From Syncephalis fuscata (lineage: Eukaryota; Zoopagomycota; Zoopagomycetes; Zoopagales; Piptocephalidaceae): a stretch of DNA of 64,000 nucleotides. Shown here in pieces: positions 955 to 54,925 of this stretch (positions are counted from its first letter, which is position 1; each line of letters opens with the position of its first letter). Made by a program: the position numbers and the translations under genes. The DNA is taken from positions 1-64,000 of the forward strand of contig JAHLTZ010000016.1 in NCBI GenBank assembly GCA_025786725.1, read 5' to 3'. Below the pieces are notes generated by a model that worked only from the letters and a program-made list of their open reading frames with translations, made no database searches and was not told the DNA's origin.

Positions 955-2358
955 TTATCGAATGGCCTTGCTTTTTGCCCAATATATACCTAAAGTTTGT
1001 TGAACTAGCAATTTGATTAGATTACCAATGCTAATGCCTTGAAAGTGTTGGTTATTTTATGTTTATAAGCAGATATAACACATATCACATGATTAATATA
1101 TAATTGGTTAATATACAACGCCACTTACAACCTATTAACACGAGTTATTAGACACACACAGTGCGTGTCATACAATTAATATATATTTGGTTAATTAAAA
1201 TTTTACTTACAGCCTATTATATAGGTCATTAGATGCACACAATGCATAGTATATGGTTAGTATATACCTAGCTAATATACAATACCACTTATGACCTATT
1301 AATACAAGTTATTAAACACACAATGTATATGGTATACACTCAATATACAAATATTTAATATTCAATGCCACTTACGACCTATTCATATGAGTTATTAGAC
1401 ACGCGATGTGTGTCATATGATTAACATATAGTTAGTTAAATTAATAAAAATCACTTACAAACTATTATATAGATTATTAGGCACACACGATGTGCGGTAT
1501 ATGATTAGTATGTGGTTAGCTAATATGCAATGCCACTTACGAGCTATTATATAGGTCATTAGACACACACAATGCGCGGTATATGATTAGTATCTAGTTA
1601 ACTACTATCCAATGTCACTTACGTCCTATCAACACAAGTTATCAAACACACAACATATATAATATATGCTTAGTATATAGTTAGTTGATATACAATATTA
1701 CTTACGACCTATTAATATGAGTTATTAGGCACACGGTACGTGTCATATGATTAATATATAGTTGGTTGATTAAAAAATTACTTACAAGCTATTATATAGG
1801 TCATTAGACACAAGCGATGCGAGGCATATGATTAGTATATAGTTGGCTGATATAAAATGCCACTTACTAGCTAGCAAAGCCAATTTAGCAGCATAAACAT
1901 TGTTTAGTTAACTAAAAACTAGTTAATGTTATTGCAATATACCTCCTATTAATATAGATTTGGTATATTAGCATTCTGAATGTGGCTTTTATTTATTGTT
2001 TTATGTTAAACGTACTCTTAGCTAATAATTCTATATTTATTTATTTTAATTAATGAGCAATGGTTAGCCAAAACATCAATAATCATGTATGCTCAAAACT
2101 TACGGGCTATTTACGTGTGTTATAGCATTCATTATGTGTATAACAACATATAGTGAGTACCAAAACAATGATCCATCATCACAACTTACCACCTAGTACC
2201 ATTGTTAGTTAAACATAATGTTAGTAAACATAACACTTGAATATTTATTGCGATTGCAACATACCACGACGGGCTAGAGTTGGATTAGCATCTACCATGG
2301 CTGTAGTGGCCACAAGAGCCATGATAATGGTGCAAACGACGGCAATAAAAAGCTTCAT
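955..2358 (-). CDS. Secreted basic Cys-containing peptide encoded by a signal-peptide exon plus 14 microexons (copy 1)
   Basis: Exon 1 (2358-2265) encodes a signal peptide starting MKLFIAVV and ending near VDA, then NPTLARR. Microexons follow on the minus strand at 2192-2190 GTG, 2106-2104 CCC, 2021-2016 CTAAGA, 1945-1943 GAG, 1870-1868 CTA, 1788-1786 CTT, 1708-1706 GTC, 1625-1623 GAC, 1543-1541 CTC, 1461-1459 TTT, 1378-1376 GTC, 1295-1293 GTC, 1213-1211 GCT and 1131-1129 GTT. The last exon is 989-955 (stop TAA). All introns are phase 1 and 70-83 nt long, except the last (139 nt). Nearly all run GTAAGT to TAG. The spliced frame is open for 57 codons; the part after ARR reads GAPKRATCRPLCRRCC and then IYWAKSKAIR. 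It holds four Cys and many Arg/Lys, and RR/KR pairs suggest Kex2-type processing. The donor after the 1295-1293 exon is ATAAGT, so that exon may be skipped. Function unknown. Confidence 0.72.
990..2264 (-). repeat. Tandem array of intron units of U1
   Basis: Fifteen introns in a row. The ten between 1132 and 1867 are clear copies of one another with a period of about 80-83 bp. They share GTAAGT at the 5' end, a run like TATACTAATCATATGAC in the middle and CTAATAAC plus AATAG at the 3' end. The nucleotides between AG and GT vary from unit to unit, while the flanking splice signals stay constant. Confidence 0.85.
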
Positions 2359-2486: not shown

Positions 2487-4520
2487 TCCATGGTTATGCT
2501 AATATACCAGTATACTGCGTTGCATGGACTATACCATTAAAATGCAATATAAATCAATAGGAACACGTCCATATGGTGGTTGAAGCACGTGCATACCAGC
2601 ACACTGATGGTATGATAATTTGTAGTCAGGTCTTTATTCTAACCTGCTCAGCGCTGGCACGAATGATGTAGCAATATCATCATTTAATAAATGTATGATA
2701 GAGGTTTGCGTAAAAACTAGTACTGTGCTATTATGCAATTCGACCATGTGACGCTAATTAAATCTATTGGTTCTAAAAAAACAGGGATGATGTATCGTTG
2801 TGTCTTTGCTGTTGCTTTCAACGACAGCTTCAATCTTCGGTATTTTTATGTATCTAAAACAAACGTAAAGCATCAATACAGTAGCAACGCTATTGCATTA
2901 GGCCTTTGGTTCTTTACAGACATTTACTGTTGTGCATAAACTGATTATATTCTCTGAGCTATGAAAGTATATTGATTGGTTTGCATATGCGTTTAGCATT
3001 GTGGCTTGCCTACAGAAATGAATGGTTTATTTTTAGAAAAACATTATCAAATGCTGATGTAAGTTCTACTATTGATCAGGGATTATTTTTATTGCTTACT
3101 GCCTGTTAATCATATGCATTTTTGATAATGAATCATTACCTTCTATCACCAGTATCGTTTATTTCCAGCACCAAAGCAACGTAAACTGACCAAATGGCAT
3201 GTAGCTCTACATAAAGACATTGGGCTATGTCTATCAGGCTGCCTCAATCAGATACAATCAATGCTGAGTGTACAGCAGCAGTTCATGGTATGTCAATCAG
3301 TACTCTCCTGTTGTGTAGATGATTCATACAGTAATGACTTGATTAAAATAACAGGTTTGCAATCTGAAGTCTGCGTTATGTGTTACACACCCAGGTCATG
3401 TTTTTACGGCCCCAATTTAATAAAAATAATAATTGAGCAGATTATAGCTATTTCAGCGATACTATTACTAGTCGTACCACTTTCCAGTCACTTTTCTGCT
3501 ATAGCTATGTATATTAAATATTATTTGCTGAGTAACATGGAAATAAGCAATATTCAATAAAATTCAGTTGTTTATTCACTGTCATATTGTATACAACCAT
3601 ATTTACGATTAAAAACTTATAAAAAGTATTTATAATAAATAGCTGATCATTATACTTACTGCTTGTTATTGATACAGCATGTATGCCTATTGCTCTGTAT
3701 GTGTCTGCTTATAATTGTCTATTTGCTATTACATTGTATCTCATATACATTACTTGCTAATGTAACTTTAGTAGAATAACTTTTATCAACAAACATTAGC
3801 CCGATACACAGCATTATAATATATAGCCTATTCTTTACTTGCTTTAAATATTTTAACAAAACACATGTTTTTATCCATTATTTATTTTAAACAATCAAAG
3901 TTATAGCTAACTATTATCAACTAATTCGCCCCTAATTAGCCATCAGTAATCAAAGTGCTAAATACTTTTAATAAACCAAAAGTTTACACATACCTCTAAT
4001 ATTTGTTCTACCGATATAGCTCAATGTTAAGTGCAATGACCAAGCTTTATAGTAATAGAGCTGGAACCAAACAGACAACAGCACTAGATATCACATAGCC
4101 AATATGTAATAAAATAGTATACATTATAATGAGTATGCAATATTAAACGAGATTAGCAATGTTAAGTTATTGAGTATATATGCATGATCAATGAATGAAT
4201 TAGTCATTTACTAATAATAAAACTAGAACAAAAATAAAAATAGTTTTGAATAGAGGAAGGTTAGGCAATTATAAAATAATATATAAAATGATAAATGTAC
4301 GGTGAAAAAGCATATAAAATGAAGTTAAAGCTATAGAGCATACAACGCAATAAATGGGCTGAGTGAAATGTGTTGGTGTGTATAATAAATAAAGTGTGTC
4401 TAGCCTATCATAGAATGGTATATGATGACATGAAATAGTATAAAGATGATATAGCTAAATAGAGTATATATGCATACTGAATAATAAATCTACAACAATG
4501 GGTATTTTGATTATTAATGT

Positions 4521-35565: not shown

Positions 35566-36373
35566 GAATGAAAAGATGTTGATTTTACAATACTTCTGAT
35601 ACATTAGCCCATGCGTTTTAATAAAAGAAATTATATTACAATAATAATAAATAGTATAGTATTAATACAACAGTAATGAATATTAGATGGCTTTAATTTA
35701 TTATTTGTATACAATGTAACATTTTTTCTCTTAATTTATTACATAGAATTAAAAAAATAAAAGACCAAATAGTTACACTTAATAGCATTCGCGCAATTAA
35801 GGTACACATTTGTTCTATTGAATATGAGAATGTGTGGTAAGTTATATTGGCCATCAAATTTATTATATGATAATTCTATTAGCATGATTGTTCTGTGTAA
35901 ATATATCTATTGCAAATATTGTCACATCGTTACATTTGCACAACATTGCAATATTGATACTTGCATTGTCTTATTCTCTAGCTTTTTACAATTCCATGCC
36001 GATCTATTTGGCGCTGACTAGCCCAATAATCAATAATCATAAATGACCAGTCCAATAATGTTTTAATAAAGCAAAAGTTTGTGCACACTCGTATTCATTG
36101 TTTATCTGTATGGCTCAATAAACAAAATAAATCAAGTTTATTGGTAATAAAGCTAGAGACAAACGGTTACTAGTTATGAATAGTATGTAGCTACTACAAA
36201 TAAGTAATATAGAATAGAATGCGTATACTGTGGAAAGTATATGAGTAGTAGTGCTAAGATTACAATGCATAAAACATTATCATTGGCGTACAATATCCAT
36301 GGACATTGTATGATACATCATTTGTATTTACAATAAATATAACCATTGCAGAAATGTAATTTATCATTTTGAC

Positions 36374-37470
36374 AGCTGTGTTTTAACAGAATATGCTATT
36401 TTCATTTATAATACCTTGAAATGACGATAAACATTAATTTACAAATTCAGACGTAAAACCATTGCGTCCATGTTATAAAGTATTCTAATAGCAATAATTT
36501 ACTTAATTAAACATTATTAAGATTGTGCATAACTTACGTATAATAAAGCAAACTGCATGATATTTTGCACAAGCATGCACATGACATACAGACAACTATT
36601 AGCGAAGTATACCGTAGTTGTGTTGCGGTATAGACCAATGGTTGCGATAATACGCTAATAAATGTGCAAAAATGGCCGTTTTTTTACCATTTATGGCTTG
36701 TGTAAACAAAATACAGCAAAATGATTGCTGGATTCGAGTTGTCCATGCTTAGTTATACACATTGGTATGTTTTATAGAACAATGATTTTTGCAAAAATGT
36801 TAGTCAAAAATGCAATTTACGTAATATTTGCTAACAAAAGCAATTAAAGTTATACGATTTTAAAGATTTTAATATTAAAAATGAAATTGGCATAAAGTAA
36901 ATTTAAAGCATTCACAACGCCAAAACAAGCATAATGGCAATTTAATATGCAGAAATATTGCTGTAAAGTGGCAATTTATGCTACTGATATACATATAACT
37001 TAGATTTTTGTTAGCAAATATTACGTAAATTGCATTTTTGACTAACATTTTTGCAAAAATCATTGTTTATAAAACATACCAATGTGTATAACTAAGCATG
37101 GACAACTCGAATCCAGCAATCATTTTGCTGTATTTTGTTTACACAAGCCATAAATGGTAAAAAAACGGCCATTTTTGCACATTTATTAGCGTATTATCGC
37201 AACCATTGGTCTATACCGCAACACAACTACGGTATACTTCGCTAATAGTTGTCTGCATGTCATGTGCATGCTTGTGCAAAATATCATGCAGTTTGCTTTA
37301 TTATACGTAAAGTTGTGCACAATCTTAATAATGCTTAATTAAGTAAATTATTGCTATTAGAATACTTTATAACATGGACGCAATGGTTTTACGTCTGAAT
37401 TTGTAAATAATGTTTATCGTCATTTCAAGGTATTATAAATGAAAATAACGTATTCTGTTAAAACACAGCT
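36374..37470. mobile_element. Foldback/MITE-like palindromic element (copy in U2)
   Basis: About 1.1 kb. Two arms of about 465 bp, almost perfect reverse complements of each other, surround a ~170-bp centre (about 36842-37011). The ends read AGCTGTGTTTTAACAGAATA and its complement. There is no coding potential and no clear target-site duplication in the flanks (TTTGAC / ATTAGAAT). It is absent from U1, so it arrived after U1 separated from U2/U3. Confidence 0.75.
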
Positions 37471-38098
37471 ATTAGAATATAGCTATTACGTTTTACAATG
37501 ATCGCATTATTGTTATTCCAACACTGTATGTATGTTATTATGGCAGCGTAACTAATAAATATACTATGTGATTGGGTAACACGTTATATGTGAATAGGTG
37601 CAATATTAATACGCTAAACATTAACACTAAATACTAGTAATAAACATCTATAAATCATATAATCAACAGATATTTGTTAATTGTTAATAAATAATTATCA
37701 ACATAAGCCAGCAGCTCTGTGTTAAAAACAAACAAAACAATACAAAGCTCTTGCTTTATTACTAGCCATATTTACTAAAAATAATAATAACTTTACTCAA
37801 TATTAGTAAAGATTCTCAGTTTCTAGTTCCATTTGTAACTGCTTAGTGTCATGCAGCTTATTCACTTTACGATGGTTAAACTGTGGTAGTTAATAAACAA
37901 TAATAGCTAAATTTATTATCAAAACGATATCAACTAAGCAACATGCTGTATTCTGAGTGTTAACATAAGTGTTAGTAAGTATCAAAGACTAATGCTGTAG
38001 TATAACATCAAGATAAGGCGTGCTCAGTCGTCTAGCCCACAGCTTCTAAAATCAGAATTGTAACAGCATTTAGCATTATTGCCGCATTTTCACTCTCT

Positions 38099-38515
38099 TT
38101 ATCCGACAATGTTATGATTAGCGCTATTAACATAATTATTGTCGGCGCAGACGTTATTTGCGGTGGTATAGGCATTCACATCCGAGTTGGCAATGTGATC
38201 AGCCTCATTTTGATGACTATTGAACGCGCTAGTGACTGCATTCGCGTTAAGTGCATTGTTATTTGCATTGAAGTTGTTGTTGTTTGATGCAAACCATGGG
38301 GAGTAGCCGCAATTGCCATAGCCATAGTTACCATAGCCACCGTAGCAGCCATTGTAGCAATATGGACTCCATGGCGCATACGAGCCGGGATAGCCACCGA
38401 TGCCGAATGATCTACGCTCAAACAAAGCCATTGGCTGGGCATCCACATGCTCATGAATCAGCATAATAATAGCAACAACAGCAGCAGTTGAAATAGCCGA
38501 ACGAAAAGTAAGCAT
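38099..38515 (-). CDS. Small secreted Gly/Tyr- and Asn-rich protein (U2 copy)
   Basis: 138 aa, single exon. The signal peptide MLTFRSAISTAAVVAIIMLI then HEHVDA is probably cut before QPM. A dibasic site follows (ALFERR), as in the microexon peptides. Next comes a Gly/Tyr region with paired Cys (YCYNGCYGGYGNYGYGNCGY), then an Asn/Ala-rich, prion-like C-terminal half with one more Cys. No homologous family is recognised; a cell-wall, adhesive or effector-like secreted role is possible. It is identical in sequence to the U3 copy. Confidence 0.8.
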   Translation of the reverse strand: MLTFRSAISTAAVVAIIMLIHEHVDAQPMALFERRSFGIGGYPGSYAPWSPYCYNGCYGGYGNYGYGNCGYSPWFASNNNNFNANNNALNANAVTSAFNSHQNEADHIANSDVNAYTTANNVCADNNYVNSANHNIVG

Positions 38516-40564
38516 CTTGTAATTGGATAGTTGATTGATATCAATTGAATGTGTAGGTCAGTATCTATTGCGAATGTAACAGTTCTATAATGTAGCGAGT
38601 GGAGTCAAAGTAGGTAATCAAGCTTGAATGATTGTTGTGATGATGAACTAACTAGTCGATAGCAATATTTGTTGCACATTATATACTAGTGGATTAAATA
38701 GTGACATGATGATGTCAACCATGATAAATACTAGCTGTCATTAAGATTAAGAACTGACGCTGTTAATTATTGCATACTAAACAATGACATGGTGGTACTG
38801 AATTGTTTTGTACCATTAATAGATATGCGTAGACACTGACACTTTATTTCAGACGACTAAAAGCAATAGCCAAACGTAGTGAGGCATTTGTATGAATCAA
38901 GTCAAACAACAAAATGACCGCATATTTAAATGATAATCAGTCACATAGTTGTGCCGATGTCTGCTATTGGTACGATATTAGATATAAATAAAGCCTACAG
39001 CAAAAACTGATATTTGTATTATTTGGAAATTAGCCAAAATAAATAAAGAATAAGCCATATACTATTTCAGTAATATGTGTTGGATTAATACTCATTAGTA
39101 AATATTATTATCATAAGATAAATATTGATTTAGTGTACCATATACACCTATTCAAAAAATATATAATTTATTATAAATGCATAAATGCTTTTATAGGTAC
39201 TAGAGTACAAGGACCAAGTATAAATACATCAATTATAAGAGCGCCGATACTATTACAGTATAATGGTAGCCAACTGATTGCCATTGTTGCATCAGTGTGT
39301 ATTGTACACGAGATAAGTTGTGATAACAAATAAGCAAGTACGCACAGACAAAGGCACACGCATAAATGCGGCATTAACTACAAGCAGTAAGCATAATGGC
39401 TAGCCACTAGTTATATATATATATATTAATGAATTGAACCGCTATATCTATGACGATATGTACGATGATAGTGAATAAACAATCAAGTTACACTGGAGCA
39501 TTGATTATCTCCATGTCACTCAGTAAATAATACATAATATACACAGTTATAGTAGAAAGCAGACAGGAGTTGGTATAGACGATGGATAATATTGCTAAAA
39601 TGATAGTAAGTTATTTAATGCATCACTTATCCTGAATTGCAGACGTAAAAGCATGACCCGAATGCATAATGCATAATACAAATTTTAGACTGTAAACCAG
39701 TTATTTCTAATCAAGTTATTGTAATATGAGTCATCTACGCAACAATACAGCCTAGTTGGTATGCCGTGAGCTGCTGCTGTACGCTCAACTTCAAGCATAT
39801 CTGGCTGAGTCATTCTGATGGACATATCACAATGTCCTTACACCGAGTTGCATGTTATTTAGTCAGTTTAATTTACTTTGAGGCCAAGCAATAACGACAT
39901 CAACAGCCAAACATGATCTTCTATTGTCAAAATGCATATAATTAACAGGAAATAAATAATACAGGCAATTTATACTCAACAACACAAACTGAATTAACAT
40001 TTAGTAGCACTGTACTAGAAATAATCTGTTTATCCTTGTAGCCATGCCACAATGTCAAATCAAACGCATGTATGAACCAATCAGTATATTTCCATGGCTT
40101 AAAAGGTAGCAGATGGTTTATGCACGACAGCATATATACGTGGGGAGGTAAAGGCTCGATGCAGCAATGTTATTGCTGTATTGATGCTATTTACTGCTTA
40201 GGATGAATGTAAATATGGGAATTGAGGATGTTAGTGAAAGCGACAGCAAATGCACAACAATGCATCATCGCTGTTTCTTTAGAACCAATATGTTTAATCA
40301 ACGCTAAATAATCGAATGTTGTAACATTACAATATGAATTGATAGGTGCATTTCTACCAAATGAAAACCTGATAATGGCAGCGCCGCTTCATTTGTGTAA
40401 TTTCCAGAAGGCTGAAGCAAAGGCTTGGTTGCGTTATAGCGTATCATCGATATGCCGATATACGCATGATTCAAGCCAGCACATGGATATGCTTTATGAA
40501 TGCACACTGCACATCAATGATATAATCCATACAACACATTATACTGGTGTCTTTAATAGTCAGA

Positions 40565-40573
40565 CTTAAATAG
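40565..40573 (+). promoter_or_regulatory. TATA-like element of the U2 microexon gene
   Basis: CTTAAATAG, 135-143 bp upstream of the ATG at 40708, at a place comparable to that in U1. The U3 equivalent is 50120-50128. Confidence 0.45.
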
Positions 40574-40707
40574 CACACAAATATACGCACCTAGCTAGTA
40601 GTATCATTATTACAATTTATTTTTTACTAAATACTTACTATCATCTACTTATCCTAAACACGCTCTATTGTCTATCCTACTTGATTTTTTAACAAATCAA
40701 TATTACC

Positions 40708-41623
40708 ATGAAGCTTTCTATTGCCAGCATCTGCGCCGTCCTCGTGGCTTTTGTGGCCAATATGGCTATGGTAAATGCTAAGCCAGTTCTAATTCGCCGT
40801 GGTACGTTGCAATTGCAATAATTAGTCATTTGATTAATTAAATACTGTTCGTATTATCGGATTGGTGTTATTAGGTCGTAAGTAATCCCATATATCGATT
40901 AGTCATGTATTACTTACACACCATTCCTTCTATGTGCTTAATAACCGCAATGTTAACAGCTCGTAAGTGGCATTGTATATTAAATAGCTATATACTAACC
41001 ATGTAACACCCAATGTGCGCACATTTGATAACTCGTATTGATAGAATGTAAGTAGCATGATATATTGATCAACTGTATACTAATTATATACCACCCGCCG
41101 TGTGTATTCAACAACTTGCATTACTAGTCAGTAGGTGGCATTGTATACTAACTAGTCATATACTAACTAAATGACATTCACTGTGTGGTTTGAATGATTT
41201 GTATTAATAGAAGGTAAGCTGTGTTGTACATAAAAAGCTATATACTAATTATATACCATTCACCGTGCGCGCTTAATAATTTGTATTATTAGCTAGTAAG
41301 CGCTATTGTACGTTTGCCAACTATGTGCTAACCATATAAAATTTACCGTGTGTGTTTAATAATTTGCATTACTAGCTAGTAAGCGTTATTGTATGTTTGT
41401 TAACTATGTGCTGACCATATGACATTCGCCGTGTGCGTTTAATAACATAAACCAATAGTTGGTAAGTGATATTGTATTTAATAAGCCATATGCTAAACGT
41501 ATATCATTCACTATGTGTGTCTAATAACTCTTATTTATAGGCTGTAGGTAGCTATGTATACCAAGTAGCTATGTACTAATCATACACCATGGACTGCGTA
41601 TGTAATAACTTGTGCTAATAGAA
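40708..41623 (+). CDS. Secreted peptide encoded by a signal-peptide exon plus ten microexons (U2 copy)
   Basis: Exon 1 (40708-40801, 94 nt) encodes MKLSIASICAVLVAFVANMA, then MVNA and KPVLIRR. It is followed by exons at 40875-40877 GTC, 40960-40962 CTC, 41045-41047 AAT, 41128-41130 TCA, 41211-41213 AAG, 41293-41295 CTA, 41376-41378 CTA, 41459-41461 TTG and 41541-41543 GCT. The terminal exon starts at 41622 (AAG). All ten introns are 73-82 nt and phase 1. Nine begin GTAAGT, GTAAGC or GTAGGT (the first begins GTACGT), and nine of the ten end in TAG (one CAG). The spliced frame adds GPQFKATIG after IRR and stops at a TAA split between the last two exons (T41543, A41622-A41623). The product is 40 aa, or a 9-aa peptide after signal removal and Kex2-type cleavage. 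Function unknown. Confidence 0.75.
40802..41621 (+). repeat. Tandem array of intron units of U2
   Basis: Ten consecutive introns with a period of about 82 bp. From the third onward they are recognisable copies: GTAAGTGGCATTGTATATTA, then CTATATACTAACCATAT, a purine/pyrimidine TGTGTG stretch, then TAATAACTTG and TTAATAG. The intervening triplets differ. Confidence 0.85.
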
Positions 41624-42704
41624 GGTAAGTAGAAGCACGTACTACCAACTTAATACCAACTTTATGATATACGCTGTATTTATTTATAATCACAAAATAA
41701 CCAATAATTTCAAACCATAGACATTGGTAGTTTAATTGAACTGTTGGTTCAACATACTTTAGGTATATATTCGGCAAAAAAGGCCACTTGACAGCTGCTA
41801 TTTAGCCCGTTTATACATCAAGTTGCAACCAATGCCCCGGTTTACCTGCCTTTTAGTCGATGGCATCATTATATTACCAACAAACTTAAAATTAGTCGTG
41901 TCTACGCAACTATGCAAGATTATAGTAATAAACTAGCAGTTCCATTTTAACTAGCTTCAATCGTGTCGTTATAATTATACTTATGTTTCATTTGTATCCA
42001 AAACTTGGCAAACATTAGCCAAATATACATATTAACAAAGGATTATGCAACTATTCTGTGCTAATGACTAGCCTGGCCGATGAATCAACCAAGCAATTAA
42101 TGTCGAAGCATATGTTGGTGATGGATATCAGTTGTTGTCATCAGCTTTATTAACTTTGCTGATCTTGATATCGTTTTACGATGAATTTAAAAAATAATAA
42201 TGTGCAGCAAAAAAAACAATTTAAGTAAAAGAGGAAAGCATAAAAGACAATATGAAAAACCGAAAATATGAAATGTAAATGTAGAAAAGTGATGAGCTAT
42301 TATTAATGCTATGCGGTCTTTTAATAACCAACCTGATTTAAACTGTATAGCTTTATCAGATGATTACTTATGGTATATGTAGACTGATAATCATAAATAG
42401 CAGCAGTAACACTAACAGTGTTGTTTGTTTACTTAAACATGAGCTTTAACGCTTTATCTTCTTAGCGTAGTATTGTAATGCTTCTTGCCATTATGTTGAA
42501 CTTGATTGCCACATCTTTACGTTGGCTGATTTAGAAAATAGTGATTTAGTTGATTATCTTGATTGTATTATGGCTATTGCATTACCCTTAAACATTATGG
42601 TATAATTTGGTGTTTAATGGCTATATTTAATAATATTTACGCAATTGAACATGGCACTAAGTGGTGAATGACATAATGAGTCAATTTATTATTATTTATT
42701 ACCG

Positions 42705-47865: not shown

Positions 47866-49069
47866 TAACAACAACAATACTGGCGATTACTTTTTACTTT
47901 ATTCTATACTATGCGCTATGTTTGTTTTGTATTTAATTAAATAATTAATATAAAAGACATTGTTCATTTTTTTTGCAATTATGGCCTATTGTTAATAAAT
48001 AATAATAAATTGACTCATTATGTCATTCACCACTTAGTGCCATGTTCAATTGCGTAAATATTATTAAATATAGCCATTAAACACCAAATATACCATAATG
48101 TTTAAGGGTAATGCAATAGCCATAATACAATCAAGATAATCAACTAAATCACTATTTTCTAAATCAGCCAACGTAAAGATGTGGCAATCAAGTTCAACAT
48201 AATGGCAAGAAGCATTACAATACTACGCTAAGAAGATAAAGCGTTAAAGCTCATGTTTAAGTAAACAAACAACACTGTTAGTGTTACTGCTGCTATTTAT
48301 GATTATCAGTCTACATATACCATAAGTAATCATCTGATAAAGCTATACAGTTTAAATCAGGTTGGTTATTAAAAGACCGCATAGCATTAATAATAGCTCA
48401 TCACTTTTCTACATTTACATTTCATATTTTCGGTTTTTCATATTGTCTTTTATGCTTTCCTCTTTTACTTAAATTGTTTTTTTTGCTGCACATTATTATT
48501 TTTTAAATTCATCGTAAAACGATATTAAGATCAGCAAAGTTAATAAAGCTGATGACAACAACTGATATCCATCACCAACATATGCTTCGACATTAATTGC
48601 TTGGTTGATTCATCGGCCAGGCTAGTCATTAGCACAGAATAGTTGCATAATCCTTTGTTAATATGTATATTTGGCTAATGTTTGCCAAGTTTTGGATACA
48701 AATGAAACATAAGTATAATTATAACGACACGATTGAAGCTAGTTAAAATGGAACTGCTAGTTTATTACTATAATCTTGCATAGTTGCGTAGACACGACTA
48801 ATTTTAAGTTTGTTGGTAATATAATGATGCCATCGACTAAAAGGCAGGTAAACCGGGGCATTGGTTGCAACTTGATGTATAAACGGGCTAAATAGCAGCT
48901 GTCAAGTGGCCTTTTTTGCCGAATATATACCTAAAGTATGTTGAACCAACAGTTCAATTAAACTACCAATGTCTATGGTTTGAAATTATTGGTTATTTTG
49001 TGATTATAAATAAATACAGCGTATATCATAAAGTTGGTATTAAGTTGGTAGTACGTGCTTCTACTTACC

Positions 49070-49985
49070 TTCTATTAGCACAAGTTATTACATACGCAGT
49101 CCATGGTGTATGATTAGTACATAGCTACTTGGTATACATAGCTACCTACAGCCTATAAATAAGAGTTATTAGACACACATAGTGAATGATATACGTTTAG
49201 CATATGGCTTATTAAATACAATATCACTTACCAACTATTGGTTTATGTTATTAAACGCACACGGCGAATGTCATATGGTCAGCACATAGTTAACAAACAT
49301 ACAATAACGCTTACTAGCTAGTAATGCAAATTATTAAACACACACGGTAAATTTTATATGGTTAGCACATAGTTGGCAAACGTACAATAGCGCTTACTAG
49401 CTAATAATACAAATTATTAAGCGCGCACGGTGAATGGTATATAATTAGTATATAGTTTTTTATGTACAACACAGCTTACCTTCTATTAATACAAATCATT
49501 CAAACCACACAGTGAATGTCATTTAGTTAGTATATGACTAGTTAGTATACAATGCCACCTACTGACTAGTAATGCAAGTTGTTGAATACACACGGCGGGT
49601 GGTATATAATTAGTATACAGTTGATCAATATATCATGCTACTTACATTCTACCAATACGAGTTATCAAATGTGCGCACATTGGGTGTTACATGGTTAGTA
49701 TATAGCTATTTAATATACAATGCCACTTACGAGCTGTTAACATTGCGGTTATTAAGCACATAGAAGGAATGGTGTGTAAGTAATACATGACTAATCGATA
49801 TATGGGATTACTTACGACCTAATAACACCAATCCGATAATACGAACAGTATTTAATTAATCAAATGACTAATTATTGCAATTGCAACGTACCACGGCGAA
49901 TTAGAACTGGCTTAGCATTTACCATAGCCATATTGGCCACAAAAGCCACGAGGACGGCGCAGATGCTGGCAATAGAAAGCTTCAT
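49070..49985 (-). CDS. Secreted peptide encoded by a signal-peptide exon plus ten microexons (U3 copy)
   Basis: The mirror copy of the U2 gene. The ATG is at 49985-49983, exon 1 ends at 49892, and the microexons lie at 90693 minus the U2 positions (for example GTC at 49818-49816). The triplets and the split TAA stop are the same, so the predicted peptide is identical. No disabling change was found in any splice site. Confidence 0.75.
49072..49891 (-). repeat. Tandem array of intron units of U3
   Basis: Reverse-complement equivalent of the U2 array, ten introns, same triplets. Confidence 0.85.
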
Positions 49986-52170
49986 GGTAATATTGATTTG
50001 TTAAAAAATCAAGTAGGATAGACAATAGAGCGTGTTTAGGATAAGTAGATGATAGTAAGTATTTAGTAAAAAATAAATTGTAATAATGATACTACTAGCT
50101 AGGTGCGTATATTTGTGTGCTATTTAAGTCTGACTATTAAAGACACCAGTATAATGTGTTGTATGGATTATATCATTGATGTGCAGTGTGCATTCATAAA
50201 GCATATCCATGTGCTGGCTTGAATCATGCGTATATCGGCATATCGATGATACGCTATAACGCAACCAAGCCTTTGCTTCAGCCTTCTGGAAATTACACAA
50301 ATGAAGCGGCGCTGCCATTATCAGGTTTTCATTTGGTAGAAATGCACCTATCAATTCATATTGTAATGTTACAACATTCGATTATTTAGCGTTGATTAAA
50401 CATATTGGTTCTAAAGAAACAGCGATGATGCATTGTTGTGCATTTGCTGTCGCTTTCACTAACATCCTCAATTCCCATATTTACATTCATCCTAAGCAGT
50501 AAATAGCATCAATACAGCAATAACATTGCTGCATCGAGCCTTTACCTCCCCACGTATATATGCTGTCGTGCATAAACCATCTGCTACCTTTTAAGCCATG
50601 GAAATATACTGATTGGTTCATACATGCGTTTGATTTGACATTGTGGCATGGCTACAAGGATAAACAGATTATTTCTAGTACAGTGCTACTAAATGTTAAT
50701 TCAGTTTGTGTTGTTGAGTATAAATTGCCTGTATTATTTATTTCCTGTTAATTATATGCATTTTGACAATAGAAGATCATGTTTGGCTGTTGATGTCGTT
50801 ATTGCTTGGCCTCAAAGTAAATTAAACTGACTAAATAACATGCAACTCGGTGTAAGGACATTGTGATATGTCCATCAGAATGACTCAGCCAGATATGCTT
50901 GAAGTTGAGCGTACAGCAGCAGCTCACGGCATACCAACTAGGCTGTATTGTTGCGTAGATGACTCATATTACAATAACTTGATTAGAAATAACTGGTTTA
51001 CAGTCTAAAATTTGTATTATGCATTATGCATTCGGGTCATGCTTTTACGTCTGCAATTCAGGATAAGTGATGCATTAAATAACTTACTATCATTTTAGCA
51101 ATATTATCCATCGTCTATACCAACTCCTGTCTGCTTTCTACTATAACTGTGTATATTATGTATTATTTACTGAGTGACATGGAGATAATCAATGCTCCAG
51201 TGTAACTTGATTGTTTATTCACTATCATCGTACATATCGTCATAGATATAGCGGTTCAATTCATTAATATATATATATATAACTAGTGGCTAGCCATTAT
51301 GCTTACTGCTTGTAGTTAATGCCGCATTTATGCGTGTGCCTTTGTCTGTGCGTACTTGCTTATTTGTTATCACAACTTATCTCGTGTACAATACACACTG
51401 ATGCAACAATGGCAATCAGTTGGCTACCATTATACTGTAATAGTATCGGCGCTCTTATAATTGATGTATTTATACTTGGTCCTTGTACTCTAGTACCTAT
51501 AAAAGCATTTTATAATAAATTATATATTTTTTGAATAGGTGTATATGGTACACTAAATCAATATTTATCTTATGATAATAATATTTACTAATGAGTATTA
51601 ATCCAACACATATTACTGAAATAGTATATGGCTTATTCTTTATTTATTTTGGCTAATTTCCAAATAATACAAATATCAGTTTTTGCTGTAGGCTTTATTT
51701 ATATCTAATATCGTACCAATAGCAGACATCGGCACAACTATGTGACTGATTATCATTTAAATATGCGGTCATTTTGTTGTTTGACTTGATTCATACAAAT
51801 GCCTCACTACGTTTGGCTATTGCTTTTAGTCGTCTGAAATAAAGTGTCAGTGTCTACGCATATCTATTAATGGTACAAAACAATTCAGTACCACCATGTC
51901 ATTGTTTAGTATGCAATAATTAACAGCGTCAGTTCTTAATCTTAATGACAGCTAGTATTTATCATGGTTGACATCATCATGTCACTATTTAATCCACTAG
52001 TATATAATGTGCAACAAATATTGCTATCGACTAGTTAGTTCATCATCACAACAATCATTCAAGCTTGATTACCTACTTTGACTCCACTCGCTACATTATA
52101 GAACTGTTACATTCGCAATAGATACTGACCTACACATTCAATTGATATCAATCAACTATCCAATTACAAG

Positions 52171-52587
52171 ATGCTTACTTTTCGTTCGGCTATTTCAACT
52201 GCTGCTGTTGTTGCTATTATTATGCTGATTCATGAGCATGTGGATGCCCAGCCAATGGCTTTGTTTGAGCGTAGATCATTCGGCATCGGTGGCTATCCCG
52301 GCTCGTATGCGCCATGGAGTCCATATTGCTACAATGGCTGCTACGGTGGCTATGGTAACTATGGCTATGGCAATTGCGGCTACTCCCCATGGTTTGCATC
52401 AAACAACAACAACTTCAATGCAAATAACAATGCACTTAACGCGAATGCAGTCACTAGCGCGTTCAATAGTCATCAAAATGAGGCTGATCACATTGCCAAC
52501 TCGGATGTGAATGCCTATACCACCGCAAATAACGTCTGCGCCGACAATAATTATGTTAATAGCGCTAATCATAACATTGTCGGATAA
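52171..52587 (+). CDS. Small secreted Gly/Tyr- and Asn-rich protein (U3 copy)
   Basis: Translation identical to the U2 copy over all 138 residues. A TATA-like TAGTATATAATG lies about 165 bp upstream of the ATG (51998-52009). Both alleles of this inverted pair look intact, so both may be expressed. Confidence 0.8.
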   Translation: MLTFRSAISTAAVVAIIMLIHEHVDAQPMALFERRSFGIGGYPGSYAPWSPYCYNGCYGGYGNYGYGNCGYSPWFASNNNNFNANNNALNANAVTSAFNSHQNEADHIANSDVNAYTTANNVCADNNYVNSANHNIVG

Positions 52588-53211
52588 AGAGAGTGAAAAT
52601 GCGGCAATAATGCTAAATGCTGTTACAATTCTGATTTTAGAAGCTGTGGGCTAGACGACTGAGCACGCCTTATCTTGATGTTATACTACAGCATTAGTCT
52701 TTGATACTTACTAACACTTATGTTAACACTCAGAATACAGCATGTTGCTTAGTTGATATCGTTTTGATAATAAATTTAGCTATTATTGTTTATTAACTAC
52801 CACAGTTTAACCATCGTAAAGTGAATAAGCTGCATGACACTAAGCAGTTACAAATGGAACTAGAAACTGAGAATCTTTACTAATATTGAGTAAAGTTATT
52901 ATTATTTTTAGTAAATATGGCTAGTAATAAAGCAAGAGCTTTGTATTGTTTTGTTTTTAACACAGAGCTGCTGGCTTATGTTGATAATTATTTATTAACA
53001 ATTAACAAATATCTGTTGATTATATGATTTATAGATGTTTATTACTAGTATTTAGTGTTAATGTTTAGCGTATTAATATTGCACCTATTCACATATAACG
53101 TGTTACCCAATCACATAGTATATTTATTAGTTACGCTGCCATAATAACATACATACAGTGTTGGAATAACAATAATGCGATCATTGTAAAACGTAATAGC
53201 TATATTCTAAT

Positions 53212-54309
53212 AGCTGTGTTTTAACAGAATACGTTATTTTCATTTATAATACCTTGAAATGACGATAAACATTATTTACAAATTCAGACGTAAAACCATT
53301 GCGTCCATGTTATAAAGTATTCTAATAGCAATAATTTACTTAATTAAGCATTATTAAGATTGTGCATAACTTTACGTATAATAAAGCAAACTGCATGATA
53401 TTTTGCACAAGCATGCACATGACATGCAGACAACTATTAGCGAAGTATACCGTAGTTGTGTTGCGGTATAGACCAATGGTTGCGATAATACGCTAATAAA
53501 TGTGCAAAAATGGCCGTTTTTTTACCATTTATGGCTTGTGTAAACAAAATACAGCAAAATGATTGCTGGATTCGAGTTGTCCATGCTTAGTTATACACAT
53601 TGGTATGTTTTATAAACAATGATTTTTGCAAAAATGTTAGTCAAAAATGCAATTTACGTAATATTTGCTAACAAAAATCTAAGTTATATGTATATCAGTA
53701 GCATAAATTGCCACTTTACAGCAATATTTCTGCATATTAAATTGCCATTATGCTTGTTTTGGCGTTGTGAATGCTTTAAATTTACTTTATGCCAATTTCA
53801 TTTTTAATATTAAAATCTTTAAAATCGTATAACTTTAATTGCTTTTGTTAGCAAATATTACGTAAATTGCATTTTTGACTAACATTTTTGCAAAAATCAT
53901 TGTTCTATAAAACATACCAATGTGTATAACTAAGCATGGACAACTCGAATCCAGCAATCATTTTGCTGTATTTTGTTTACACAAGCCATAAATGGTAAAA
54001 AAACGGCCATTTTTGCACATTTATTAGCGTATTATCGCAACCATTGGTCTATACCGCAACACAACTACGGTATACTTCGCTAATAGTTGTCTGTATGTCA
54101 TGTGCATGCTTGTGCAAAATATCATGCAGTTTGCTTTATTATACGTAAAGTTATGCACAATCTTAATAATGTTTAATTAAGTAAATTATTGCTATTAGAA
54201 TACTTTATAACATGGACGCAATGGTTTTACGTCTGAATTTGTAAATTAATGTTTATCGTCATTTCAAGGTATTATAAATGAAAATAGCATATTCTGTTAA
54301 AACACAGCT
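53212..54309. mobile_element. Foldback/MITE-like palindromic element (copy in U3)
   Basis: Same element as at 36374-37470, in the mirror position. The central 170 bp keeps the orientation expected from the arm inversion, so it was duplicated with the unit rather than inserted twice. The window therefore holds palindromes nested inside a larger inverted repeat. Confidence 0.75.
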
Positions 54310-54844
54310 GTCAAAAATGATAAATTACATTTCTGCAATGGTTATATTTATTGTAAATAACAAATGATGTATCATACAATGTCCATGGATATTGTACGCC
54401 AATGATAATGTTTTATGCATTGTAATCTTAGCACTACTACTCATATACTTTCCACAGTATACGCATTCTATTCTATATTACTTATTTGTAGTAGCTACAT
54501 ACTATTCATAACTAGTAACCGTTTGTCTCTAGCTTTATTACCAATAAACTTGATTTATTTTGTTTATTGAGCCATACAGATAAACAATGAATACGAGTGT
54601 GCACAAACTTTTGCTTTATTAAAACATCTATTGGACTGGTCATTTATGATTATTGATTATTGGGCTAGTCAGCGCCAAATAGATCGGCATGGAATTGTAA
54701 AAAGCTAGAGAATAAGACAATGCAAGTATCAATATTGCAATGTTGTGCAAATGTAACGATGTGACAATATTTGCAATAGATATATTTACACAGAACAATC
54801 ATGCTAACAGAATTATCATATAATAAATTTGATGGCCAATATAA

Positions 54845-54925
54845 CTTACCACACATTCTCATATTCAATAGAACAAATGTGTACTCAATTGCGCGAATGC
54901 CGCTACATTTTGTCATTTGACCACT
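54845..54925 (+). repeat. Dispersed motif A at the outer end of U3
   Basis: TTACCACACATTCTCATATT, CAATAGAACAAATGTGTACT, CAATTGCGCGAATGCCGC and TCATTTGACCAC: a well-preserved copy. Its mirror copy opens U2 at about 35786-35840; shorter ones lie at 42620-42674 (minus) and 48021-48075 (plus). Confidence 0.6.

Follow-up and report, generated by a model that had tools for sequence, protein, structure and literature searches.

The stretch of DNA analysed here, in the following referred to as the window, comprises 64,000 nucleotides (nt) of the fungus Syncephalis fuscata (contig JAHLTZ010000016.1, positions 1 to 64,000, assembly GCA_025786725.1) and carries on its forward strand a gene (40708..41762) which is predicted to encode a short secreted peptide almost one codon at a time, in a tandem array of 3-nt exons. 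The species assignment is in line with a tubulin-tyrosine-ligase-like protein of the window, which has 95% identity to an S. fuscata protein across 90% of its length. Exon 1 (40708..40801), which is conserved in relatives, contains the ATG, a signal peptide (MKLSIASICAVLVAFVANMAMVNAKPVLIRR) and the first base of the next codon, and direct reading places the donor GTACGT at 40802, in phase 1. Further downstream on the same strand, direct reading and a script identified nine codon-bearing microexons: GTC (40875..40877), which completes a codon for G, followed by CTC (40960..40962; P), AAT (41045..41047; Q), TCA (41128..41130; F), AAG (41211..41213; K), CTA (41293..41295; A), CTA (41376..41378; T), TTG (41459..41461; I) and GCT (41541..41543; G). 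A tenth microexon, AAG (41622..41624), was identified by direct reading and provides the stop codon T|AA, which is divided between the last two microexons (GC|T + AA|G); the loci L027 and L028 of the same family likewise end with CTT|AAG. The initial annotation had described nine 3-nt exons between consensus splice signals, and while length and splice signals hold, the count has to be raised to ten, of which nine bear codons and the tenth the stop. Its further description of the locus was borne out by direct reading: the acceptors are TAG or CAG and the donors GTAAGT, GTAAGC or GTAGGT, the introns of about 80 nt are arranged in tandem with microexon starts spaced 81-85 bp apart, and in phase 1 the open frame runs through the signal peptide and an RR site into GPQFKATIG and ends at TAA. 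At 41691..41702 (+) lies a remnant of the start of a terminal exon (ACAAAATAACC) in which the acceptor AG is mutated, several relatives reading ATAG|AATAACC at this position, and a comparison with these relatives identified a conserved 3' untranslated region (UTR) at 41703..41932 (+), extending up to AATAAA. The segment 41684-41932 is 77% identical to positions 817-1068 of the window. Since the stop is located upstream, the loss of the terminal acceptor may be of small consequence for this gene.

The same gene, with identical microexons, is present a second time on the reverse strand (48931..49985). This second copy resides within an inverted duplication of ~6.9 kb, the arms of which (35785-42701 and 47993-54900) are 99.67% identical, lie ~5.3 kb apart and carry the array gene; family matches on opposite strands were also observed in further contigs, e.g. 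C57 and C236. In addition, a second member of the family is located at 1089..2358 on the reverse strand, with exon 1 at 2265-2358, the microexons GTG and CCC, a 15-nt exon (AATTATTAGCTAAGA), GAG and then the array. By the rule used, no stop in phase 1 was found for this member, and its terminal acceptor reads ATAA where relatives have ATAG. Throughout the window the strict motif occurs 15 times on the forward and 25 times on the reverse strand, with a longest run of 10 per strand at a spacing of 78-90 bp. A chance origin of the array was considered and ruled out, as 200 simulated strands based on first-order base statistics yielded 2.6 strict motifs on average and in no case a pair of them in register.

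The initial annotation had treated this locus as a single gene. The gene itself stands, but it is part of a large family: when at most 3 mismatches are tolerated, the start of exon 1 matches the genome at 180 places (control, 0), and the motif TAATAG-N3-GTAAGT...ATTNTATA does so at 3756 places when at most 2 are tolerated (reversed control, 3). The array of the window matches at least 132 places in the genome, and at the protein level the signal peptide gave at least 150 matches (the best 150 of 331 candidates). For closer analysis 65 loci (L009-L073) were fetched, 20 of them longer, 5 more, 20 short and 20 of ~2.4-3 kb. Seventeen turned out to be intronless, 39 gave 40 gene models and nine remained unmodelled, either because the start was not recognised by the exon-1 pattern (L020 and L023) or because fewer than six microexons or no recognised donor were present (L048, L049, L056, L058, L063, L064 and L067). 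Together with two genes of the window, and excluding the identical second window copy, the final set comprises 42 models with at least six microexons. These models were chosen on splice scores and not on the reading frame, AG and GT being required.

Within this set the exons are of strikingly uniform length. In the final run, which permitted only multiples of three, 766 of the 793 internal exons are 3 nt long, while 20 are of 6, four of 15, two of 9 and one of 21 nt, and the number of internal exons per model ranges from 6 to 36. The earlier statement that essentially every exon is a single codon is therefore mostly correct, with 27 of 793 exons of 6, 9, 15 or 21 nt to be added; the two 9-nt exons, in L012 and L021, occur at a unit without the usual acceptor and may have been miscalled. 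A run that also permitted 2, 4, 5, 7 and 8 nt placed such lengths in only 2 of 503 exons (31 models listed). The same preference is seen directly in the genome: using fixed flanks with up to 3 mismatches, 2272 matches have 3 bases between AG and GT (reversed control, 0), compared to nine with 2 bases (reversed control, 0), one with 4 bases, in fact a 3-nt case in shifted position and equalled by one match in the reversed control, and 48 with 6 bases, which are mostly shifted 3-nt cases (reversed control, 0). Among the 766 units the three exon columns have entropies of 1.95, 1.72 and 2.00 bits, AG and GT of 0, and the remainder of GTAAGT of 0.13-0.28 bits; hence, nearly free exon positions are framed by nearly invariant splice sites. 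The overall architecture is constant as well. Exon 1 of the family ends with ...CGT CGT G|GTATGT or similar and is followed by the 3-nt exons, and 10 of the 48 models have an exon of 15 or 21 nt which, together with the next microexon, creates a second dibasic site (APLAKR, QLLAKR, VPLAKR or similar) ahead of a longer array. In several genes a terminal exon with ATAG|AATAACC or similar supplies a stop in phase 1, with the conserved 3' UTR and AATAAA behind. For 31 intact models the available sequence extends far enough beyond the array, and by a loose terminal-exon rule, which is biased towards a nearby stop, 22 of them reach a phase-1 stop within the array or the terminal exon. Thus, as modelled, the genes have the signal peptide in a long 5' exon and a body consisting mostly of symmetrical microexons, the structure by which microexon genes (MEGs) are defined.

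The spacers between the microexons have the borders of spliceosomal GT-AG introns. In 37 models their median length is 79 nt, with 91% at 70-95 nt, and at the internal exons the donor is GTAAGT in 622 of 708 and the acceptor TAG or CAG in 707 of 708 cases, AG and GT being a requirement of the model. These canonical signals speak against the idea that the spacers are removed from the DNA, similar to the internal eliminated sequences of ciliates, and not from the RNA. Intronless versions are indeed present in the assembly, which speaks for such an excision, but they are located elsewhere in the genome and differ in sequence, and we regard DNA excision as so improbable as to be practically negligible.

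The coding potential of the arrays was assessed by their reading frame. Across the 42 models, phase 1 contains 4 stops in 839 codons, three of them in the last exon and one in the next to last; phase 2 contains 98 stops, and phase 0 contains 5 in 839 codons. Because phase 0 is almost clean as well, the order of the exons was used as the decisive test. A phase-1 stop requires that an exon ending with T is joined to one beginning with AA, AG or GA. When adjacent exons are joined, omitting the last junction, this occurs at 1 of 709 junctions, compared to 28.5 on average and never fewer than 15 when the exon order was shuffled 1000 times within genes, and the 35 models without close copies gave the same picture (1 of 601; shuffled, 24.4). 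A model-free version of the test, in which a strict regular expression was applied to every locus from L009 onwards and to the window, yielded 87 distinct among 97 uninterrupted runs with a total of 750 exons; here, adjacent stops occurred at 5 of 663 junctions, all of them the last or next to last (shuffled mean, 23.0; minimum, 10).

The same test bears on the question of whether any subset of the symmetrical exons might be combined, so that one gene would give rise to many peptides. Such combinatorial splicing would be tolerated by the frame, since 766 of the 793 exons are of 3 nt and the others, in models that allowed nothing else, of multiples of three, and skipping that keeps the frame has likewise been argued for in the MEGs of schistosomes (PMC4671649). 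However, the avoidance of stops is confined to neighbours. Joins that skip one exon have stops in 33 of 667 cases (shuffled, 26.6), thus without any avoidance, and those skipping two, three or four exons in 27 of 625, 20 of 583 and 20 of 541 cases, close to the 25.0, 23.1 and 21.6 expected from shuffling. In the model-free runs the corresponding numbers are 27 of 576 versus 20.0 for one and 13 of 489 versus 17.1 for two skipped exons. As stop avoidance is limited to adjacent junctions, selection seems to act on the full set of exons, joined in order and in phase 1, and not on skipped forms. We therefore consider combinatorial splicing unlikely and set widespread skipping aside, while minor skipped forms may occur.

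Further support for phase 1 comes from the 17 intronless loci. Here, the same signal exon continues straight into the peptide, as would be expected of a processed retrogene, and the 3' UTR of the family was matched behind all of them. Eleven of the intronless peptides share a cysteine framework close to CxxCxxxC...C...C, and peptides of a similar kind are obtained from arrays when these are read in phase 1, e.g. in L072 (GLEECWACMDECTTIYTTAECRKNNCAKQCRK), L071 (GDPAQCAACENCKRRTGLDWGKCRNGSCRTIC) and L059 (GSYGKACMVVCKDRGELSKEQCQGKCYNQCNNPQP). Likewise, the sequences AVEPLAKR and DAAPLAKR of intronless genes match AVAPLAKR, which the array of L018 would produce from exons of 3, 15 and 3 nt. A profile was built from the eleven peptides and compared to 29 array peptides, 28 of which were scored. 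The positive scores add up to 74.8 bits, compared to a mean of 22.3 and a maximum of 50.5 for 100 shuffles and to 1.6 and 28.9 bits for phases 0 and 2, respectively. Six array peptides score above 5 bits (shuffled mean, 0.72; maximum, 4), and 13 of the 28 do not match the cysteine profile. Among 493 pairs of array and intronless peptides the best scores were obtained for L071/L051 (71; shuffled 20.3, standard deviation (SD) 5.5, maximum 52), L072/L041 (70; shuffled 21.3, SD 5.6, maximum 51) and L070/L029 (62; shuffled 24.9, SD 5.5, maximum 41). These three pairs are placed ~7-9 SD above the shuffled exon order in a comparison in which the real peptides included residues of the terminal exon and the shuffled ones did not; the tenth-best pair (49) is below its shuffled maximum of 53. 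In their composition by codon position the phase-1 arrays are also similar to the intronless genes, with T at the third position at 0.48 and 0.38, respectively, compared to 0.31 in a single ordinary open reading frame of the window. The claim of the initial annotation that single-codon exons in phase 1 give rise to a secreted peptide is thus supported by three lines of evidence, the order-dependent avoidance of stops, the fixed length of 3 nt and the intronless paralogs.

Beyond S. fuscata the peptides could not be assigned to a known family. A profile of ten intronless members matched only proteins of S. fuscata (14 at E <= 1 among 87 candidates, with a sensitivity limited to shared 5-residue words), Pfam gave no convincing family (four families with one member each, best E 0.016), and among solved structures all matches were at E 2 or worse. 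As candidates for the alpha-hairpinin-like class, which has two CxxxC helices, the cysteine peptides matched only vicilin peptides and a trypsin inhibitor (E 2-9.7). As a side observation, L031, L039 and L047 form a distinct subgroup of intronless genes, in which a longer body (PPFGACKCRDDDGYCTSC) is common to L031 and L039, while L047 has a related short stretch.

A further property of the arrays was revealed by a comparison of 11 pairs of paralogs, some of which share a gene. In the exons 142 of 614 bases differ (23.1%), compared to 1513 of 15806 (9.6%) in the introns, 52 of 1032 (5.0%) in exon 1 and only 9 of 776 (1.2%) in AG and GT. When single units are considered, the exons equal their flanks as long as the latter are less than 3% divergent (0.9% versus 0.8%, 72 units). 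They differ by 11.9% where the flanks are at 3-8% (mean 5.5%, 14 units), by 41.0% at 8-15% (mean 12.1%, 13 units), by 53.3% at 15-25% (mean 21.0%, 20 units) and by 65.0% at 25-50% (mean 32.2%, 39 units). This excess suggests diversifying selection on the microexons. It also bears on the view that the arrays are a noncoding satellite of decayed intron copies which is removed as one long intron, the microexons being cryptic splice sites. The repeated units in tandem, some of them without splice sites, would fit such a satellite, and introns in tandem could multiply by a passive process. A satellite that evolves neutrally should not differ more in the exon bases than in the flanks once the units have diverged, and the fixed exon length, the ordered avoidance of stops and a cysteine scaffold that the arrays have in common with the contiguous paralogs contradict this view, which we judge to be very improbable.

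How the array and the intronless genes are related in time was approached by a tree of exon 1 and the 3' UTR (49 rows, 17 of them intronless; 329 columns). Ten of the 42 array rows were dropped for want of a usable 3' UTR match, mostly where the stretch ends; a stricter 3' UTR pattern would have retained 32 rows. A single clade of intronless genes was rejected by the approximately unbiased (AU) test (p = 0.009); the only support of at least 85 was obtained for a small mixed clade of L040 and L032 (93). The intronless L029 is 90% identical to the array locus L033 over 320 bp, beginning 224 bp upstream of the ATG, while L031, the other intronless locus compared, shares ~25 bp upstream and one 40-bp piece with array genes. 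These shared flanks, together with the 3' UTR, could be taken to mean that the intronless genes are ancestral and later gained an intron after the first position of each codon, the arrays being coding in this case as well, and introner-like elements can indeed spread introns. This opposite history from intronless gene to array is a possibility to which we attach little probability. Introns that are alike, in one phase and spaced at ~83 bp fit the duplication of units and not independent insertions, the near-identical L012 and L021 differ by two units and thus by two codons (TTC CTG, present as an insertion, in addition to units without a splice site), and the rejection of a single intronless clade fits repeated loss of introns at least as well. 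It might rather be that the intronless genes are products of recombination with complementary DNA (cDNA) than of retroposition. In this context it was observed that L048 has a 9-nt exon, to which the public model P0131 adds a longer one (~33 nt by reading) in the same phase; L048 is possibly an intermediate between the intronless and the single-codon forms.

From the features of the sequence, the ordered-frame signal and the paralogs, all of which are directly observed, we infer that the microexons are spliced, and it is very probable that constitutive splicing, probably stepwise, builds hypervariable secreted peptides in which each unit of ~83 bp adds or removes one codon. In this model, exon 1 would provide the signal peptide, usually with a dibasic (RR) site of the Kex2 type, and end one base into a codon. 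Every unit would consist of an intron of ~79 nt and an exon of 3 nt, with all introns in phase 1, and contribute one amino acid, the spliceosome taking the microexons in order. As acceptor and donor are only 3 nt apart and the U1 and U2 components are probably unable to occupy such an exon simultaneously, splicing is most likely stepwise and intron-defined, and the near-perfect GTAAGT donors may compensate for the missing exon context. The stop would be supplied by the terminal exon or the last microexon, ahead of the conserved 3' UTR, and the products would be short secreted peptides, many of them rich in cysteine, the RR and KR sites of which are probably cut by a Kex2-type protease. Since the unit is symmetrical and self-contained, its duplication or deletion, or the loss of a splice site, would add or remove one residue and leave the frame intact, while the three exon bases would diversify between conserved splice sites. 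Several of the intronless paralogs probably arose by way of spliced messenger RNA, through cDNA recombination, by which a given peptide would be fixed. Syncephalis species are parasites of mucoralean fungi, and such a hypervariable family most likely serves in the interaction with the host fungus or in antimicrobial action, the peptides probably being directed at a fungal host or at competitors.

A number of observations weigh against this interpretation. Phase 0 is nearly free of stops too, and phase 1 is singled out only by the phase of exon 1, the order test and the intronless paralogs. In the profile comparison 15 array peptides score above zero, a number within the range obtained by shuffling (mean, 11.1; maximum, 17), and the scores of single peptides are modest, the best being 13.2 bits. 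A contiguous copy of the array peptide of L072 was not found genome-wide, an empty answer that is uninformative for this kind of search. Nine of the 31 intact models reach no phase-1 stop by the rule used, although L012 and L021 do so by eye, and gaps of ~160 nt in some models point to exons that were perhaps missed or are dead. Furthermore, exon 1 is frame-shifted or otherwise altered in five of the 42 models (L009, L014, L015, L017 and L024) while their arrays are largely intact, which suggests recent pseudogenes; these five genes and several units that have lost a splice site indicate decay in some of the family. The gene copy of the window is atypical as well, with nine residues, no cysteine and a lost terminal acceptor, and may be a marginal member of the family. 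With regard to the divergence, the exons are identical in a few of the closest pairs, and misalignment of units could add to the differences between exons. Finally, L029 shares promoter-side sequence with array genes and is therefore no simple retrocopy, and the change between arrays and intronless genes may have run either way.

Several known systems resemble the arrays in part. Recursive splicing, in which a donor is created beside the acceptor just used, proceeds at sites that leave nothing or cassette exons within long introns; such stepwise splicing is the likely route for the S. fuscata arrays, where each step would leave one codon. Schistosome MEGs encode small secreted proteins, the signal peptide of which is largely contained in a long 5' exon and the body of which is for the most part made up of short, often symmetrical exons; their microexons are <36 bp long, and 26 of 33 in MEGs 26-32 are symmetrical (PMC4671649). 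Judged by this description, the S. fuscata family is similar in secretion, in the long 5' signal exon and in a body of short symmetrical exons, but it differs in that nearly all exons are 3 nt long, that they reside in tandem units of ~83 bp and that the evidence from adjacent order argues for full inclusion. In the pea aphid, the KQY/KHI cassette effectors combine a conserved signal exon with a divergent body of many miniature exons, KQY1a having 37 exons of 6-416 bp, and the internal exons of bicycle genes are mostly in phase 2 (PMC7495047, PMC9168663). A conserved signal exon and a divergent body of many miniature exons are shared with KQY/KHI, internal exons in one phase with bicycle genes, and an effector-like, fast-evolving family character with both, while tandem arrays of single-codon exons do not appear in the descriptions consulted (PMC7495047, PMC9168663). 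The profile, Pfam and structure comparisons revealed no sequence link to schistosome MEGs or to the aphid bicycle and KQY families. By analogy, the S. fuscata family would work like these systems, in a more extreme form. Ultra-small exons have been described with a length of 1 nt in Arabidopsis APC11 (PMC4674806) and Fusarium CYP621A (PMC12940212), of 3 bp in Drosophila homothorax (PMC7392893) and of 1-15 nt in plants (PMC8831610). These cases show that spliceosomes, including those of fungi, can include 1-3 nt, and that annotation easily misses such exons; they sit singly in ordinary genes, whereas the S. fuscata models have 6 to 36 internal exons, which are hypervariable and distributed over many genes. 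Within the openly licensed literature, which leaves subscription journals and bioRxiv outside, neither single-codon exon arrays nor this family turned up in the records consulted, and to this extent the initial annotation's view that no such array is known to have been described can be upheld.

We are inclined, with some reserve, to regard the arrays as a new gene organisation, in which self-contained one-codon cassettes within near-identical introns are arranged in tandem, the gain or loss of units and the loss of splice sites edit the product residue by residue, the exons outpace the introns and spliced versions can be written back as intronless genes. If so, the spliceosome would have to run stepwise and with high fidelity through tens of 3-nt exons. 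Exons of this size are deemed exceptional and hard to splice, and here a single fungal genome contains thousands of 3-nt-exon motifs; the arrays hence constitute a natural test of the minimum exon size for the spliceosome and of stepwise splicing. They also tie the duplication of introns to protein diversification at the resolution of a codon, and the paralogs with and without introns represent built-in controls. The two public gene models compared appear to miss the arrays, P0124 continuing past a microexon donor and P0130 starting inside such a donor and entering the intron. As both run into array introns and bypass the microexons, families of this kind may have gone unnoticed in other genomes.

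As a minor observation, the arrays of L025, L056, L058, L064 and L067 are each interrupted, as judged by eye, by a similar repeat-like sequence (near ...TTTTGAAGAGCTTGTGAGCCCC) located just after a GTAAGT donor, which is possibly a mobile element that favours this site of the intron.

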